37,814 nt of DNA from Deltaproteobacteria bacterium (GTDB lineage: Bacteria; Desulfobacterota; Syntrophia; Syntrophales; UBA2210). Positions 670 through 11,777 of the stretch are shown piece by piece. The DNA lies in assembly GCA_016930775.1 (NCBI GenBank), contig JAFGGB010000031.1:1-37814 (forward strand), read 5' to 3'. Within the stretch, counting starts at the first letter, position 1. The number at the start of each line of letters is the position of its first letter. The position numbers and the translations under genes were made by a program. The notes under the pieces are model-generated. The model ran no database searches, had not been told where the DNA came from, and saw only the letters and a list, made by a program, of their open reading frames with translations.

Positions 670-996
670 TCACGCATGTAATAATCGCCGTAGCAGCAGC
701 GTCTGCATATCGCTACGGCCATCGACAATCAGCAGAACGTAGACGTCCTTATCCATGATTCGGTAAATGATACGGTAGGGTTTGAAGAAGATCTCGCGGT
801 ATTCACGAATCCCTAACGCCGCCAGTTCTTTAGGATAGGCGCCCCGCTCTGGGAATTCAGACAACCCGGAGAAGGCTTTCTCGATTTGCTCCAATACGTA
901 GTCCGCTTTTTGAGGCGCATCATGCAGAGCGATGTAGTTATAAAGCTCTTCGAGATCACGTGCTGCATCATTGGTTAGCAAAACCGCGAACGGCAT
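670..996 (-). CDS. RelE/ParE-family toxin
   Basis: ORF 108 aa with DLEELYNYIA...FPERG...REIFFKPYRIIYRI...VYVLLIVDGRSDMQTLLLRRL, typical of the ParE/RelE fold. The start overlaps the antitoxin stop (TGATG). Confidence 0.88.
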   Translation of the reverse strand: MPFAVLLTNDAARDLEELYNYIALHDAPQKADYVLEQIEKAFSGLSEFPERGAYPKELAALGIREYREIFFKPYRIIYRIMDKDVYVLLIVDGRSDMQTLLLRRLLHA

Positions 997-1271
997 CAGT
1001 CGCCCTCCCGCCGTGCGCGCAGACGTTTAATCACATCTTCTGCAGACAGGACATTGCCTTCCTCAATCTGATGCATCCCGAGCGCCAGGATTTTCAGGAG
1101 AGCCATTGTTTCCTGGGTTTGCTCGTAGCTATCGATGTCCTGTATGACCACCTTGGCTTCGCCATTCTGGGTGATAACCAGCGTCTGTCGCTGTTCGCCC
1201 AGATTCCTTACAATTTCGGCGGCATGGGCCTTGAGGTAACTGATGGGCTTGATCTGGCTGGACAGTCTCAT
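996..1271 (-). CDS. Phd/YefM-family antitoxin
   Basis: MRLSSQIKPISYLKAHAAEIVRNLGEQRQTLVITQNGEAKVVIQDIDSYEQT is a classic Phd/YefM N-terminus. The internal Met at 1271 is preferred over the 1292 start in the track. Confidence 0.88.
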   Translation of the reverse strand: MRLSSQIKPISYLKAHAAEIVRNLGEQRQTLVITQNGEAKVVIQDIDSYEQTQETMALLKILALGMHQIEEGNVLSAEDVIKRLRARREGD

Positions 1272-1293
1272 TGGAGTACCTCCACTTCTCAAA

Positions 1294-3612: not shown

Positions 3613-3936
3613 ATGAAACATTCGCCCTATTCGAGGTTCGACAGCCACAATCTTATCCTGCGGGACGAACTTGCCGTTGATCGGACGCTGCTGGCGAACG
3701 AAAGAACCCTTCTGGCGTATCTTCGCTCGGCAGTGGCGTTGGTGATCGCCGGCGTTACGATCATTCATTTCTCGACGGAAAGCTGGTTCTGGGCAGTAGG
3801 ATTAGCGTGCATCCCAACGGGAATCGTCACCGGAGCTGTCGGCGTGGCGCGGTATGGGAGAATGAACAAATCCATTTCGCTTCTTCGAAGGCGGTCGAAA
3901 GAGGAGATACACAAATCGGAAGAATCCGATATGTGA
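3613..3936 (+). CDS. DUF202 family small membrane protein
   Basis: DELAVDRTLLANERTLLAYLRSAVALVIAGVTII: signature of DUF202. Confidence 0.85.
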   Translation: MKHSPYSRFDSHNLILRDELAVDRTLLANERTLLAYLRSAVALVIAGVTIIHFSTESWFWAVGLACIPTGIVTGAVGVARYGRMNKSISLLRRRSKEEIHKSEESDM

Positions 3937-4101: not shown

Positions 4102-4119
4102 TTGCGCCATTAGGCGCAA
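4102..4119. promoter_or_regulatory. Perfect inverted repeat TTGCGCC-ATTA-GGCGCAA, candidate activator site
   Basis: 7-bp perfect arms, 4-nt spacer, in the noncoding region upstream of the EamA/tct cluster. Confidence 0.45.
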
Positions 4120-4130
4120 TATTCCATAGA

Positions 4131-4152
4131 CACTGTGCCATATGGCACAGTG
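4131..4152. promoter_or_regulatory. 22-bp perfect palindrome CACTGTGCCATATGGCACAGTG, candidate activator/operator site
   Basis: Every base is self-complementary. Lies 11 bp after the TTGCGCC repeat and about 95 bp upstream of a sigma54-like promoter. Confidence 0.5.
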
Positions 4153-4245
4153 GAACTTCATGCCTCGTCGCTAAAATAATCTTTCATGTCGTATGTTCAC
4201 ATCAATATTAAGAAGATACGAACATTCTTTATCGAAAAACCTGTT

Positions 4246-4260
4246 TGGCACAAAACATGC
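4246..4260 (+). promoter_or_regulatory. Candidate sigma54 (-24/-12) promoter
   Basis: TGGCACAAAACATGC: exact TGGCAC -24 box, GG and GC separated by the canonical 10 bp, one mismatch in the -12 box (ATGC for TTGC). About 60-66 bp upstream of the EamA start codon. Confidence 0.6.
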
Positions 4261-4319
4261 TCGCATGAGGGCGTGTCGGCGCACTGCAGCGCCCCCGTTT
4301 ATCACGCTGAATTACATGG

Positions 4320-5234
4320 GTGTCTATGAGTTATCGCGGTTTCTTTTTCCTCGCCACGGCGGCTCTTTCCTACGGCATTCTGCACGTCGTTGACAAGTCT
4401 GCCGTCAGTCGCGGTGTAGATCCTGCGGCATATACGGTAATGCGGATCGTCATTGCCATGGCCGTCCTGGCGGCAGTTGTCATGCTGAAAGGCGATGATC
4501 GAATTCGCAGTGTATTCCGGAAGGACAATATCAAGGACCTCTTCATTATCGGCGTGTTTGGCTCGGGAATAGGACTTTTTTTCCAGATCAAGGGACTCTC
4601 TCTTTCGAGTGTGACGAATGTGAGCCTTCTGCTGACGCTTGTAGCTCCCATGACCAGCTTTTTGGCCTTCTTGATTCTCAAAGAACCGATATCGAAGCGG
4701 TTTATCCTGTCCTCAGCGTTTATGGTGGCAGGAGTCTGTTCCATCCATCTCAGAAACACCTATGCTCCTTTCAACAGGGGCGATCTTCTCGTGACGTTCG
4801 CCATGGTCGGATTTGCCTACAGCAATATCCACGCTCGGAAAACCATGAAGAGCATGTCCGTGACGCTGGTAACCTTCGGCCGGCTTGTCTTTGGCTCGTT
4901 GTCGCTGGGAATCCTGATGCCCTTTCTCGGGGCCTCGCTGCCCAGCCTGTTGAATGCTCCGGTGCTTGTCGTGCTGGGAGGTTGCCTTTTCGGCGTCAGG
5001 ATGGCGGCGTATTACAAGGGAATTGAGATAGAGGGCGCATCCGTTGCGGCCACCTTTCTCCTCTTTTCCCCCGCCGTGGCCGTCCTGAGCGCACACCTTG
5101 TTCTCGGAGAACCTATCACCGGGCCGATAATGGTCGGCATCGGCTTGGTGATTGTTGGAGGATTCCTGTTGACCGGCATCAGGCCAGACAATGCCGCCTG
5201 CGTGATTGCCAATGTCGACCGGAAGGGGGAGTAG
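4320..5234 (+). CDS. EamA/DMT-family transporter
   Basis: Ten-TM EamA pattern with two repeats (SSVTNVSLLLTLVAPMTSFLAFLILKEPIS; ASVAATFLLFSPAVAVLSAHLVLGEPITG). Start GTG 4320 or ATG 4326. Confidence 0.88.
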   Translation: MSMSYRGFFFLATAALSYGILHVVDKSAVSRGVDPAAYTVMRIVIAMAVLAAVVMLKGDDRIRSVFRKDNIKDLFIIGVFGSGIGLFFQIKGLSLSSVTNVSLLLTLVAPMTSFLAFLILKEPISKRFILSSAFMVAGVCSIHLRNTYAPFNRGDLLVTFAMVGFAYSNIHARKTMKSMSVTLVTFGRLVFGSLSLGILMPFLGASLPSLLNAPVLVVLGGCLFGVRMAAYYKGIEIEGASVAATFLLFSPAVAVLSAHLVLGEPITGPIMVGIGLVIVGGFLLTGIRPDNAACVIANVDRKGE

Positions 5235-5290: not shown

Positions 5291-6232
5291 ATGAGAAGAA
5301 TCATTTTTATTGTAATGATCGTTTTAATTGCTTTACCGTTGCAAGTTCAGGCGAAGTATCCTTCCCGAGCCATTACCATCATCGTTCCCTCGGCGGCAGG
5401 AGGTTCAACCGACGCCACCGCACGGATATTCATCAAGGCAGCGAAGAATTACTGGCCCGAGGCAGATTTCGTCGTTAAAAACGTCAGCGGGTCCGGCGGG
5501 CAGAAGGGCTTCGAGGAAATTGCGCGCGCAAAGGCCGATGGCTACACGATCGGCATGGTTTTTACGACGCAGGTTGTTGCCCATATCGTTTCCAAGCGCG
5601 CCAAGTACACTCTGGACAGTTTCCACGTCATGGGCAATGTCGGTCAGGACCCCGAGATCGTAGTCGTTCCCAAAAACAGTTCAATTACCAGCCTCGATGA
5701 GTTGGTCAAGGCGGCGAAGGAGAAAACGCTTACAGCCACCGTCAACGGCATTGGTTCCGATGATTTCGTGGCTATGAGAAAGTTTGAAGAAATTGCCGGA
5801 GTGACGTTCAATATGATGCCCACCAAAGGTTCAACGGAGCAGAAGGCGGCCATCCTCGGGGGGCACGTGGACGTCAGTTTCATGAATCTCTCCCAAATGC
5901 ACGGTCAGCACAAGGCGGGCGACGCCCGAATTATCGCCATCCTGGACGAAACGCGATCGGATCTGGTGATGGACGTGAAAACGGGCATAGAGCAGGGTTA
6001 CAAGGTTCTTATGACGGCAGCTCGCGGTTTCGTGGCGCCCGCAAAAATTGATAAGGATGTTGCCGACAAGCTGGATGATTTGCTGCAGAAGGTGCTGAAA
6101 GATCCGGGTTTCATAGCTGACTGTAAAAAGGACAGCCTTTTCCTGCTTCCGATGACCGGGACGCAATTCCTTGGGTACCTCAAAGAACTGCAGATAGATA
6201 CCCAAAGATACTATAACAAGAATCCCTGGTAA
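5291..6232 (+). CDS. tctC: TctC-type tripartite tricarboxylate transporter substrate-binding protein
   Basis: Signal peptide then KYPSRAITIIVPSAAGGSTDATARIF; precedes TctB/TctA homologues. Confidence 0.9.
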   Translation: MRRIIFIVMIVLIALPLQVQAKYPSRAITIIVPSAAGGSTDATARIFIKAAKNYWPEADFVVKNVSGSGGQKGFEEIARAKADGYTIGMVFTTQVVAHIVSKRAKYTLDSFHVMGNVGQDPEIVVVPKNSSITSLDELVKAAKEKTLTATVNGIGSDDFVAMRKFEEIAGVTFNMMPTKGSTEQKAAILGGHVDVSFMNLSQMHGQHKAGDARIIAILDETRSDLVMDVKTGIEQGYKVLMTAARGFVAPAKIDKDVADKLDDLLQKVLKDPGFIADCKKDSLFLLPMTGTQFLGYLKELQIDTQRYYNKNPW

Positions 6233-6418: not shown

Positions 6419-6874
6419 ATGAGCAAGCGCTTGTCCAAATTGATGATCATTGGCGCGCACTTTCTTCTTGCCGTTCTGCTGTTTCTCAGCACGGCCCGAT
6501 ATCCCGAGTGCGTTCAGAGTTCCACGGCCACCTATGTGCGTTTTATCGGCCTGACACTGGCTATTCTCTCGGTCATTCAGTTCCTGCTATGGTTGAAGGA
6601 CCCCGACAGGAGCTTACGGGAAAAACTCGGCATTATAGTCAATGCCCGAGGTTTTTGGGGGTTGCTCATTCTTTTGCTGTGTTACGCAGCGGCACTCGGA
6701 ATGTTGGGCTTTTACATTTCATCGGCGCTGTTTCTGCCCGTGACCATGTACCTCTTGGGCGCACGCAACATAGCAGCAATCGGAGGAACCTCCGTGTCGG
6801 TATTGCTTTTCGTGTACCTGGTTTTCGGCAAGATTCTGGGAGTCCTGATGCCGGAGGCCCTGTTGTTCAATTAG
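6419..6874 (+). CDS. tctB: TctB-family small membrane subunit of TTT transporter
   Basis: 151-aa four-TM protein directly before tctA; RYPECVQSSTATYVRFIGLTLAILSVIQFLLW pattern. Confidence 0.82.
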   Translation: MSKRLSKLMIIGAHFLLAVLLFLSTARYPECVQSSTATYVRFIGLTLAILSVIQFLLWLKDPDRSLREKLGIIVNARGFWGLLILLLCYAAALGMLGFYISSALFLPVTMYLLGARNIAAIGGTSVSVLLFVYLVFGKILGVLMPEALLFN

Positions 6875-6878
6875 AAGG

Positions 6879-8360
6879 ATGGCAAGCATGATTATTGAAG
6901 CATTACAATCCATTCTGACCCCTTCAGCGCTCACTGCCGTGTTTGTGGGAACCGTTGCTGGGGTCCTGGTCGGCGCCATACCGGGATTGACGGCCACCAT
7001 GGCCGTGGCCTTGCTGATTCCGGTAACCTTTGCCCTGGAGCCTCTTACGGGTCTTGTCCTCATGGGCGGCGTTTATTGCGGCGCCATGTATGGAGGATCG
7101 ATCCCCGCTATTCTCCTCCACACACCGGGAACGCCCGCAGCTGCGGCAACGGCGCTTGAAGGATATCCCCTGACAAAAAAAGGGCACGGCGGACTTGCCC
7201 TGAAGGTATCCGTCGTTTCAAGCTATATCGGCGGGACCTTTTCGACGATCGTTTTGCTGTGCGTAGCGCCAATCCTGGCGAGATTCGCCCTGAGGTTCGG
7301 ACCGCCTGAGTATTTTCTCCTGGCTATTCTCGGTCTCGTGGGCATCGTATCCCTGGCCGACGAGGGGGAGTTGGTCAAGGCCTTGATGTCCGGTTTCCTC
7401 GGACTGGCAATTGCCGTCGTCGGAACGGACCCCATATCGGGCGGGCTGCGGTACACTATGGGCATTACGGATCTCTTCGACGGCGTCGCCTTTATGCCTG
7501 TTCTGATCGGCATGTTTTCCGTCGCCCAGATGATAGAATTGACGGGCGTTAAATCAATCATCACCGACAGGACCACCTTTAGCAAGATCAAGCGAGAAAA
7601 GATGCCCAAGGGGCTTGGCAAATTTATCGGACTGGGCTCCGTTCTCGGAACGATCGTGGGCATTCTGCCGGGCGAGGGCGCTACGATCGCGGCTTTCATA
7701 TCGTATAATGTGGCGCGACAAAACTCGAAGAACCGGAAGCTTTTCGGGAAAGGCAATCCCGAAGGAATTGCCGCCGCCGAAAGCGGAAACAACGGCTGCG
7801 TAGGCGGATCCCTCGTGCCGACGCTGACTTTGGGCATCCCTGGCAATAGCGTGGCTGCGGCGCTTATGGGCGGATTGATCATTCACGGGCTCATTCCAGG
7901 TCCTGAGCTTTTTACGAAACACGGTGTGATCACCTATGGGTTCATTTTTTCGCTTTTCCTGGCAAACCTGATATTCTTGGCTCTGGGCCTGTATCTCGCC
8001 CCTTACTTTGCACATATTTCGCTCACTCCCACATCATTGCTTATACCGGTGGTGTGCCTCTTTTCCGTTCTCGGTTCGTACGCCATAAACAACAGCCTCT
8101 TCGATGTTTTCGTCGCCCTTGCGGCAGGCTTATCAGCCGTAATCCTTCACAAGGCAGGCTATTCATGCAGCGCCCTCGTCCTGGGACTTATCCTCGGTCC
8201 GATCGCCGAGTGCGGCTTCGCTCAGGGGCTCATCATCGGGCACGGGAGCTATTCCATTTTCTTCACCCGAGCCCCGAGCCTGGCTCTCTGGGCTGTCATC
8301 GCGCTCCTGCTCGTGCCGCCCTTTGTACAGATCTATAAACATCACAGGAGGAAAGAATAA
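6879..8360 (+). CDS. tctA: TctA-family large membrane subunit of TTT transporter
   Basis: GAIPGLTATMAVALLIPVTFALEPLTGLVLMGGVYCGAMYGGSIPAILLHTPGTPAAAATALEGYPL and GILPGEGATIAAFISYN...GNSVAAALMGGLIIHGLIPGP. Confidence 0.96.
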   Translation: MASMIIEALQSILTPSALTAVFVGTVAGVLVGAIPGLTATMAVALLIPVTFALEPLTGLVLMGGVYCGAMYGGSIPAILLHTPGTPAAAATALEGYPLTKKGHGGLALKVSVVSSYIGGTFSTIVLLCVAPILARFALRFGPPEYFLLAILGLVGIVSLADEGELVKALMSGFLGLAIAVVGTDPISGGLRYTMGITDLFDGVAFMPVLIGMFSVAQMIELTGVKSIITDRTTFSKIKREKMPKGLGKFIGLGSVLGTIVGILPGEGATIAAFISYNVARQNSKNRKLFGKGNPEGIAAAESGNNGCVGGSLVPTLTLGIPGNSVAAALMGGLIIHGLIPGPELFTKHGVITYGFIFSLFLANLIFLALGLYLAPYFAHISLTPTSLLIPVVCLFSVLGSYAINNSLFDVFVALAAGLSAVILHKAGYSCSALVLGLILGPIAECGFAQGLIIGHGSYSIFFTRAPSLALWAVIALLLVPPFVQIYKHHRRKE

Positions 8361-8868
8361 ACGAATCTGCGACAAACCCGATTGCACTTTTACTCTAATC
8401 GCCGGCCGCCCCAACTGCAATGGGAGCTTTCACTGCGCCGGTGAAATACTCTGATCGGCGGACGTTTGAATGACATTGCGAACAGGGCGGCCGGGACGCT
8501 CGGCGGATAACTGCGGGAGGCATCTGCAGCGATTGGCAGGCGGCATGTGTGCTTCTTCCCCCTCTGTATCTCGTACGGAGAACCTGTTCCGGCATGAAAT
8601 ATTCGCGCAGCAGCAATGCTGGCCGCCCTCGCGCCGCCGCAGGCTGCCTTGACAATTTCGGCATCGGCACTGGTAACGTGCGCATCGCTTCATCGCCTCG
8701 GCACGAACGACGAACAGTAGGCTGAATTCGCCGGGATTCTCACGAAGGATCTTTTTCGCAATGCTGTTATTTCGCATCAGTGTCTCGCGTCAGTAGGTCA
8801 TCAAGGCGGCAGCGAAGCGGACAGCAAATTTTTTCGACGGGGCATTCCGGAAGGTTTTCTGGAGACCA

Positions 8869-10410
8869 ATGACAAGGAGTGATATAGTAAAACAAGAACA
8901 AGTACGTTACGGGCGCTGGAGATCCTGTTTAGTGAATCTCACAGTAAAATTTTTCCTATCTGTTACCTGCCTGGTAACCGTCATTATCGCTCTTGCCATG
9001 TTGACCACGCTGAAACAGGAAACATCCTTCATTGAAGCAAAGATGAAGAAAAAAGGATATGTTTTGGCCGAAGTGATGGCCATGGCCAGCGTCAACGGGT
9101 TTCTAAGCTACGATTATTCAATGTTGAAGCGATATTTCGACACTGTCTGCAAGGATGAGGACGTCATTCTTGTAATGATCCTCGATAACGAAGGCCGCAT
9201 CAAGATGCACAGCGATATCGACCAGATCGGCATAAAATTGAACGACGAAACCACCTTGGCGGCGCTAAATGTTCGCGAGCCCGTTTTCCAGGAGATGGAA
9301 GAAGAAAGATTGGGCAAGATTTATTACTTTACCGCCCCGATTATGGTGGAATCGCAAAAACTGGGCATCGTCCGCTTTGCCATGTCAAATGCCGAGATTA
9401 TCCGGGACACCTCCGCCTCACGAAACAGACTGCTGCTTATCGGCTTGGCGGCAATACTGCTGGGGGGACTCGGGGCGGTTCTCATGGGCCGCATGATTTC
9501 AAAGCCGCTGCGCCAACTGGCCGCCGGCGCCAGGGCTGTTTCGCGCGGCGATCTGAATTGGAAGATCGATATCAGAGGGCAGGATGAGATTGGCGTGCTC
9601 GCCGAAGCCTTCTCCTATATGGTAAGCAATTTACGCAAGTCAATCGACTCTCTTGTTCTGGCCGAGAAAATGGCAAGCATCGGAAAGCTCGCCTCTACGA
9701 TCGCCCATGAAGTCAGAAATCCCATGGAACCCATCAAGGGTTCGGCGGAAATTCTCCAGCAGGCCTTTCCTGCAAACGAAAAGATTGTTAAATATACCCG
9801 CATAATAAAGGACGAAATCAGCGGCGTGTGCGACTTTCTGGATCATTTCCTTAATTTTGCCAGACCGCCTAAATTTTCCGTTGGCCCGGTGAACGTCAAC
9901 GATGTTTTGAAGGAAACTCTGTCGCTTATAGATCATTACATCGGCGACCACAATCTCGTCATTGAAAAGAATCTTGATGACGGTCTTCCGGTAATTTCAG
10001 GGAACGAGCGCCAAATCAAACAGCTCTTTCTGAATCTCGTCATGAATGCCGTCCAGGCTATGCGTGACGATCAGCCGGGAAAATTGACAATCGGATCTTC
10101 CCTTCGTTCGGTCCTCTCCCCGGGAAATGAAGGCGATTCCAGATACGGGCGCTATGTAAGCGTAGAATTCTGCGACTCCGGCAAGGGAATAGCGCTGGAA
10201 GATCTGAATCGAATATTTGAACCTTTTCACACGACTAAAGAGGACGGCACCGGTCTGGGTCTTGCCATCGGCCGCACCATCATGAACCGCCATGGCGGAT
10301 TCATTACAGTGGAAAGCGAGTTGGGCCGGTGGACCCGAGTTACGGCTCATTTCCCCGCAGACCCGGCAGACGAGACCAGCACCAATCAACATGTGAAAGG
10401 ATTTCTATGA
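8869..10410 (+). CDS. Membrane-bound sensor histidine kinase (periplasmic sensor, HAMP, HisKA, HATPase_c)
   Basis: Two TM segments flanking about 150 aa, HAMP (RMISKPLRQLAAGARAVSRGDLNWKI), H-box IAHEVRNPMEPIKGSAEIL, NLVMNAVQAM, GTGLGLAIGRTIMNRHGG. Confidence 0.95.
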   Translation: MTRSDIVKQEQVRYGRWRSCLVNLTVKFFLSVTCLVTVIIALAMLTTLKQETSFIEAKMKKKGYVLAEVMAMASVNGFLSYDYSMLKRYFDTVCKDEDVILVMILDNEGRIKMHSDIDQIGIKLNDETTLAALNVREPVFQEMEEERLGKIYYFTAPIMVESQKLGIVRFAMSNAEIIRDTSASRNRLLLIGLAAILLGGLGAVLMGRMISKPLRQLAAGARAVSRGDLNWKIDIRGQDEIGVLAEAFSYMVSNLRKSIDSLVLAEKMASIGKLASTIAHEVRNPMEPIKGSAEILQQAFPANEKIVKYTRIIKDEISGVCDFLDHFLNFARPPKFSVGPVNVNDVLKETLSLIDHYIGDHNLVIEKNLDDGLPVISGNERQIKQLFLNLVMNAVQAMRDDQPGKLTIGSSLRSVLSPGNEGDSRYGRYVSVEFCDSGKGIALEDLNRIFEPFHTTKEDGTGLGLAIGRTIMNRHGGFITVESELGRWTRVTAHFPADPADETSTNQHVKGFL

Positions 10411-11777
10411 AGGCAACCATTCTGGTGGTTGATGATCGGCCGAATATCAGGGAAGTGTTAACGGACATTCTGAACGAAGAATACAACGTAAAGAATTGCG
10501 GCAATGGCGATAAGGCAATTGAGATCTTTCAGGAGTTGAAACCGGACATCGTCATATCCGATGTGAAGATGCCGGGCATGGACGGGATGGAGTTGATAAA
10601 ACGCATTCGAACAATGGACGAGATCGTTCCCGTGATTTTGATTACCGCCTACGGCACGATTCCTTCAGCCGTTGAGGCAATGAGAATAGGCGCGTATGAT
10701 TATTTAACAAAACCGATTGATTACGATCGTCTGAAACTTGTCATTCGAAGAGCCCTTGATCAAAGCAGTCTGAAACGGGAAAACAGCCTTCTCAGGGAGC
10801 AGCTGGCAAAAAAATACAGCCTTTATGACAATATCATAGGCAAGAGCCACGTAATGCAGAAGGTTTTCAATCTGGTCGAAACCGTAGCGTCTTCCCACAG
10901 CAACGTTTTGATACAAGGTGAAAGCGGCACTGGCAAGGAATTGATTGCCAATGCCATCTATTATCACAGTACACGGAAGCACAAGCCCATGATTATCGTT
11001 GACTGTTCCACCCTGCCTGAAGGTTTGCTGGAAAGTGAGTTGTTTGGCCACGAGAAAGGCGCCTTTTCCGGCGCCGTCACGGCAAAAAAGGGCAGAATCG
11101 AAATTGCCGACGGCGGCACATTGTATCTTGATGAAATCAGCGAAATGAGCATATTCCTTCAGGCTAAATTGCTCAGGGTATTGCAGGAAAGACAGTTCCT
11201 CCGGGTTGGGGGACTGAAACCGATCAACGTTGATTTCCGTTTAATCTCCTCGACAAACAGAGATCTTCAAAAGGAGGTGGAATGCGGTCAATTCCGTTCC
11301 GATTTATATTATCGCCTGAATGTTGTCATGATAACGATCCCGCCATTGCGCGAACGGAAGGAAGATATCCCCCTCTTGGTCGATAGCTTTTTGAAAAAGT
11401 TTGCCAGACGCGAGGGAAGAACCATTAAAAGCGTTTCCAGAGAGCTTATGGAGAGCCTTATCCGATACAATTGGCCGGGGAATGTACGTGAATTGAAAAA
11501 TTGCGTTGAACGCATGGTCGTGATCGGGCGATCGGAACCCCTGACGCCGGAAGATTTGCCCGAATCTATTGGCTGCCGCCAAACCCCGCCTGCCGCCGAG
11601 GACCATAGTTCCCCCTGTTACAACCTCTCCTCCATTGAAAAGAATATTGTTCAACAGGTCCTCGAAAAAACCAATTGGAACAAATCTGCCGCCGCCAGTT
11701 TACTGAATATAGATCGCAAGGCCCTGTACACTCGTATAAAAAAATACAAGCTGAACAGCTCATCAAGCGAAGGGTAG
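10407..11777 (+). CDS. NtrC-family sigma54-dependent response regulator
   Basis: REC (DIVISDVKMPGMDG), AAA+ (GESGTGKE Walker A, GAFSGA loop, GGTLYLDEIS), Fis HTH C-terminus (SAAASLLNIDRKALYTRIKKY). ATG overlaps the kinase stop codon. Confidence 0.96.
   Translation: MKATILVVDDRPNIREVLTDILNEEYNVKNCGNGDKAIEIFQELKPDIVISDVKMPGMDGMELIKRIRTMDEIVPVILITAYGTIPSAVEAMRIGAYDYLTKPIDYDRLKLVIRRALDQSSLKRENSLLREQLAKKYSLYDNIIGKSHVMQKVFNLVETVASSHSNVLIQGESGTGKELIANAIYYHSTRKHKPMIIVDCSTLPEGLLESELFGHEKGAFSGAVTAKKGRIEIADGGTLYLDEISEMSIFLQAKLLRVLQERQFLRVGGLKPINVDFRLISSTNRDLQKEVECGQFRSDLYYRLNVVMITIPPLRERKEDIPLLVDSFLKKFARREGRTIKSVSRELMESLIRYNWPGNVRELKNCVERMVVIGRSEPLTPEDLPESIGCRQTPPAAEDHSSPCYNLSSIEKNIVQQVLEKTNWNKSAAASLLNIDRKALYTRIKKYKLNSSSSEG

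Follow-up and report, generated by a model that had tools for sequence, protein, structure and literature searches.

The window, by which we mean the whole 37.8 kb stretch of DNA analysed here, contains an operon for a tripartite tricarboxylate transporter headed by an EamA-family gene. Two palindromes and a predicted promoter precede this operon, and genes for a sensor kinase and a response regulator follow it. The features are as follows:

4102-4119, no strand assigned: distal candidate activator site, TTGCGCC-ATTA-GGCGCAA, with a 16-bp core at 4103-4118 (TGCGCC-ATTA-GGCGCA)
4131-4152, no strand assigned: proximal candidate activator site, a 22-bp perfect palindrome with its core at 4134-4149 (TGTGCC-ATAT-GGCACA)
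4246-4260, plus strand: predicted sigma-54 (-24/-12) promoter, TGGCACAAAACATGC (TGGCAC-AAAAC-ATGC), with a predicted start near 4272
4320-5234, plus strand: EamA-family transporter (Pfam PF00892), first gene of the operon, starting at GTG 4320 or ATG 4326
5291-6232, plus strand: tctC, periplasmic binding protein (PF03401)
6419-6874, plus strand: tctB, small membrane subunit (PF07331)
6879-8360, plus strand: tctA, large membrane subunit (PF01970)
8869-10410, plus strand: sensor histidine kinase with HAMP, HisKA and HATPase domains and a weak sCache_3_2 match
10407-11777, plus strand: NtrC-type response regulator with a receiver (PF00072), a sigma-54 AAA+ domain (PF00158) and a Fis-type helix-turn-helix (PF02954)

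The TctCBA transporter set is complete, TctC, TctB and TctA being encoded together, and TctA is 63% identical to its counterpart in a spirochaete (locus L047) versus 46% for the best paralogue in its own genome. The sCache_3_2 match of the kinase falls just under the Pfam cut-off in the full protein. The regulator carries GAFSGA in its sigma-54-contacting loop (GAFTGA in the L047 regulator) and RKALYTR as its recognition helix, and scores below every curated cut-off of the NCBIfam equivalog models for AtoC, NtrC, ZraR and PgtA, the best score being that for AtoC (491.5 versus a cut-off of 714 bits). Between tctA and the kinase gene lie about 500 bp (8361-8868) with no convincing open reading frame, and the kinase-regulator pair is probably transcribed from a promoter of its own.

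The intergenic region upstream of the operon is bounded by a DUF202 gene (ending at 3936) and the EamA gene (starting at 4320). Both palindromes and the promoter box were described by an earlier sequence-only reading, and its sequences and positions agree base for base with ours, as does the exact GG-N10-GC spacing of the box. An inverted-repeat search returned 11-bp arms in the proximal palindrome, which reads CACTGTGCCAT|ATGGCACAGTG (unsplit, CACTGTGCCATATGGCACAGTG) and is the longest perfect palindrome of the window, and 7-bp arms in the distal one. When the intergenic region was shuffled 400 times with dinucleotide counts preserved, no shuffle produced a palindrome with 11-bp arms and eight held a pair of separate perfect palindromes whose arms were at least 7 bp long. 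The 16-mers at the two sites, TGCGCCATTAGGCGCA (distal) and TGTGCCATATGGCACA (proximal), both fit TGYGCC-N4-GGCRCA, and the two cores have TGYGCC-AT-N2-GGCRCA in common. Their centres are 31 bp apart, or about three helical turns, and are predicted to lie at about -162 (distal) and -131 (proximal) relative to the start near 4272, which was itself predicted from a distance of about 12 bp between the -12 GC and the start.

The promoter box differs from TGGCAC-N5-TTGC at one position, its GG and GC being ten bases apart. It is not significant on its own, as the window holds 25 matches with up to two mismatches versus 32 expected; its credibility comes from its location and from conservation across related loci, sigma-54 boxes also lying downstream of the paired sites in seven other loci. 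The rpoN gene is present (G000:C140) and RpoN is encoded in all four genomes tested (4/4). A search for a sigma-70 promoter in the intergenic region upstream of EamA found none.

The sequence-only reading had named conservation of the palindromes and the box in related genomes as a check. The arrangement recurs in distant spirochaetes; within the phylum of the window, the orthologous cluster was not found among 395 genomes. Scoring the top few candidates per genome, we saw no clear orthologue of the kinase in those 395 genomes, and the sole distant kinase match within the phylum (L158) is without the cluster. The closest relatives of the kinase and activator (8869-11777) are in spirochaetes. 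The best kinase match among 84,980 species is in a Spirochaetales metagenome-assembled genome (L047) with the gene order HK-RR-tctC-tctB-tctA and a regulator 56% identical to that of the window. Between its regulator gene and tctC are TGTTCC-ACAC-GGAACA and TGTTCC-ATAT-GGAACA, 21 bp apart, followed by TGGCATAAAACTTGC, and TGTTCC-N4-GGAACA is confined to that locus in its genome. Two further spirochaete loci, L167 and L166, have the same design with spacings of 31 and 32 bp. The spirochaete pairs, of type TGTKCC-N4-GGMACA, precede a sigma-54 box and either tctCBA or an ABC-transporter operon, and the spacing is 30-32 bp in seven of the eight loci and 21 bp in the remaining one.

A degenerate pair pattern was built from four loci (the window, L047, L167 and L166) and then run genome-wide. 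Genome G455, excluded from the building of the pattern, encodes a regulator 63% identical to that of the window and holds a single pair with 31-bp spacing, located on a different contig from the regulator, with TGGCACAGAAAATGC and a gene for a binding protein downstream of it. The contig with the regulator begins with matching ABC components, and the two contigs, C90 (L191:8953-10283) and C161 (L165:90-7512), may be adjacent. Five more kinase relatives (L201-L205) were added by kinase homology only, two of which (L202 and L203) were left out of the pair test, their sequences ending inside the regulator gene. In L201 the two sites are 30 bp apart and the gene after the sigma-54 box encodes a binding protein; in L205 they are 31 bp apart and the gene after the sigma-54 box is tctC. 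L204 has a good site and a degenerate one, each some 300 bp away from the predicted start, with a TGGCACTCTTTTTGC box before tctC. Sites were thus predicted correctly in three loci outside the building set (G455, L201 and L205) and only partly in L204.

The sequence-only reading had also suggested that the palindromes, being different, could bind two proteins. An activator and a repressor would be one such combination. The outer flanks and arm lengths of the palindromes do differ (7-bp arms around a 4-base spacer versus a continuous 22-bp palindrome), but the shared core contradicts this idea, as do the seven other loci, in which the pair is again one motif twice, spaced by whole helical turns. 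We therefore regard two different regulators as very unlikely. Because the pair is a single motif in whole-turn spacing both here and in spirochaetes, it fits two dimers of one putative activator bound on a single face of the DNA.

Exact matches to TGYGCC-N4-GGCRCA number three in the 3.1 Mb genome of the window, two being the pair itself and the third lying inside an open reading frame with RCC1-like repeats. Matches with up to one mismatch (23) equal those of a reversed-pattern control (24), so no regulon beyond the EamA promoter is claimed. The degenerate pair pattern has one match per genome in all five genomes checked (G000, G445, G455, G820 and G832). Of 392 other spirochaete genomes sampled, just 11 have any match. 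No pair was found in 1.28 Mb of unrelated kinase loci, in the own-genome paralogue loci, or when each of seven regions was shuffled 20,000 times. One spirochaete genome, with 21 pattern matches, has tandem repeats of about 23 bp (G661:C13:114630-114783, L176), whose CGCTCTAATGGGAACG-type units are probably an unrelated repeat family.

A tree places the eight activators together in a single clade (support 100/100), separate from 18 paralogues of the window genome, and within this clade the window activator groups beside that of spirochaete locus L165 (support 94/91). The recognition-helix sequence RKALY is common to all eight and present in none of the 18 paralogues, and motif and activator clade are co-conserved. 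The gene order differs, the kinase-regulator pair lying after tct in the window and before tctC in the spirochaete tct clusters, and EamA as first gene is absent from the relatives. The sites keep to the transporter promoter and not to the regulator genes in this comparison, as is expected of a target enhancer.

These counts and the tree also bear on whether the sites belong to the general nitrogen regulator NtrC and not to the local response regulator. The E. coli NtrC box, TGCACCAnnnTGGTGCA (PMC8743547), resembles the palindromes in being a GC-rich inverted repeat, and the geometry is the same. However, it is 17 bp long with five bases between its half-sites, and the 16-bp TGYGCC-N4-GGCRCA, with four, does not match it as a site of that regulon; moreover, with one occurrence per genome the pair is unlike a nitrogen regulon, and it follows a single activator clade, making control by NtrC highly improbable. 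That the palindromes act as RNA hairpins, terminators or attenuators is extremely improbable: both give stable RNA folds (z about -4.9) and the minus-strand hairpin 4119-4102 scores as terminator-like, but they lie upstream of the predicted start with no T-run after them on the plus strand and no convergent minus-strand gene nearby, an Rfam search of the region gave no family at threshold and only sub-threshold chance matches, and half-sites are conserved in helical register even in degenerate palindromes that would pair poorly.

The palindrome pair is best explained as a dedicated two-site NtrC-type enhancer for EamA-tctCBA served by the local kinase-regulator pair, a reading to which we assign a probability of about 0.92. 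The earlier proposal of an enhancer and sigma-54 promoter for EamA-tct served by the regulator at 10407-11777 is thereby strongly supported, through footprinting across eight loci. In NtrC-type activators, phosphorylated dimers assemble into an AAA+ oligomer that contacts sigma-54 polymerase through a DNA loop and opens the promoter. In the mechanism that we infer here, with its binding, phosphorylation, cooperativity, looping and start site, the kinase (8869-10410) would sense an extracytoplasmic signal and phosphorylate the response regulator, which we propose binds both palindromes. Regulator dimers would occupy the two TGYGCC-N4-GGCRCA sites cooperatively on one helix face (31 bp, about three turns), and the activator oligomer would loop over about 90 bp to the polymerase at 4246-4260, the AAA+ oligomer spending ATP to open the EamA-tctCBA promoter. 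This is a new instance of a familiar type of switch, and it links regulator, motif, promoter and target unusually cleanly for a sigma-54 activator clade that is uncharacterised, from sequence alone and with correct predictions in loci outside the set that built the motif.

Neighbouring genes in the relatives offer hints to the substrate. A PhnD-like, phosphonate-type binding protein adjoins the orthologous kinase at five loci (L165:3883-6152, L047:9062-11488, L203:636-2893, L204:7215-9198 and L205:7941-10215) and follows tctA in L166 and L167. It is possible that the PhnD-like protein beside the kinase of these relatives is a periplasmic co-sensor. The window kinase has no PhnD-like neighbour, and the window itself is without phosphonate- or phosphate-type neighbour genes. 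Phosphate transporters lie directly after tctA at L204:599-2322, L205:14899-16642 and L167:2205-3860, that of L167 being a Na+/Pi cotransporter, that of L205 PHO4 with PhoU_div, and that of L204 identified by its position and its sequence similarity to L205. In G455 (L191 and L165), the same enhancer and regulator clade is associated with an ABC importer in place of TctCBA, and this ABC target has its best scores, below cut-off, against the PhnS2/PhnU2 models. On the basis of the PhnD-like proteins, the phosphate transporters and the PhnS2/PhnU2 scores in the relatives, we speculate that the substrate is an organic anion that is phosphorylated or a phosphonate. The PhnD-like proteins and phosphate transporters linked to these genes give a lead to what an orphan Tct transporter carries.

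Upstream of the tct cluster, the window holds a ParE-type toxin gene with a Phd/YefM antitoxin gene (670-1292, minus strand) and, adjoining these, an IS3-like transposase pair (1436-2520). A mis-binned contig was considered and rejected: the GC content and tetranucleotide profile of the cluster are nearer to its own genome than to spirochaetes, a weak signal given the short stretches compared, and transfer is likelier than contamination for this reason. The grouping with L165, the transposase and ParE/Phd genes upstream and the host-like composition together make it likely that the module was transferred between phyla. The enhancer is linked to TctCBA in the window and several spirochaetes, and in G455 and probably G869 to an ABC importer that is PhnS2/FbpA-like. 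A bolder and rather doubtful extension is that enhancer and activator form a mobile cassette that is shared between distant phyla and has been joined to unrelated transporter classes whose substrates are of one kind, namely organic anions that are phosphorylated or phosphonates. If true, the Tct transporter would have a non-carboxylate role.

The main text of a paper on the Desulfovibrio sigma-54 regulome mentions neither tricarboxylate transport nor the TGYGCC-N4-GGCRCA motif (PMC4641369). The window arrangement has parallels in several known systems. The NtrC enhancer of glnA consists of two sites about three helical turns apart. Like it, the predicted window enhancer has its two inverted-repeat sites over 100 bp ahead of a sigma-54 promoter, with an AAA+ response regulator proposed to bind them, but its motif is the 16-bp TGYGCC-N4-GGCRCA versus the 17-bp TGCACCAnnnTGGTGCA and it appears dedicated to one operon. 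The Salmonella PgtABC-PgtP phosphoglycerate system likewise combines a sensor kinase with a regulator of the sigma-54 type, and a neighbouring binding protein in the spirochaete relatives may similarly help sensing; the transporter class differs, however, and the window regulator scores 222 versus the PgtA family cut-off of 650 bits. DctB and DctD, a sensor kinase and a sigma-54 activator, control the organic-anion transporter gene dctA through a tandem site that lies upstream of it. This matches the kinase, activator and paired site before a transporter gene seen here, whereas the window target is a Tct (TTT) transporter (an ABC transporter in some relatives) and the binding motif is different. 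TctD/TctE and BctD/BctE are adjacent two-component pairs that control tct operons, as proposed for the window, but their regulators are OmpR-type, in contrast to the NtrC-type regulator and sigma-54 promoter here, which place a tct operon under predicted NtrC-type control.
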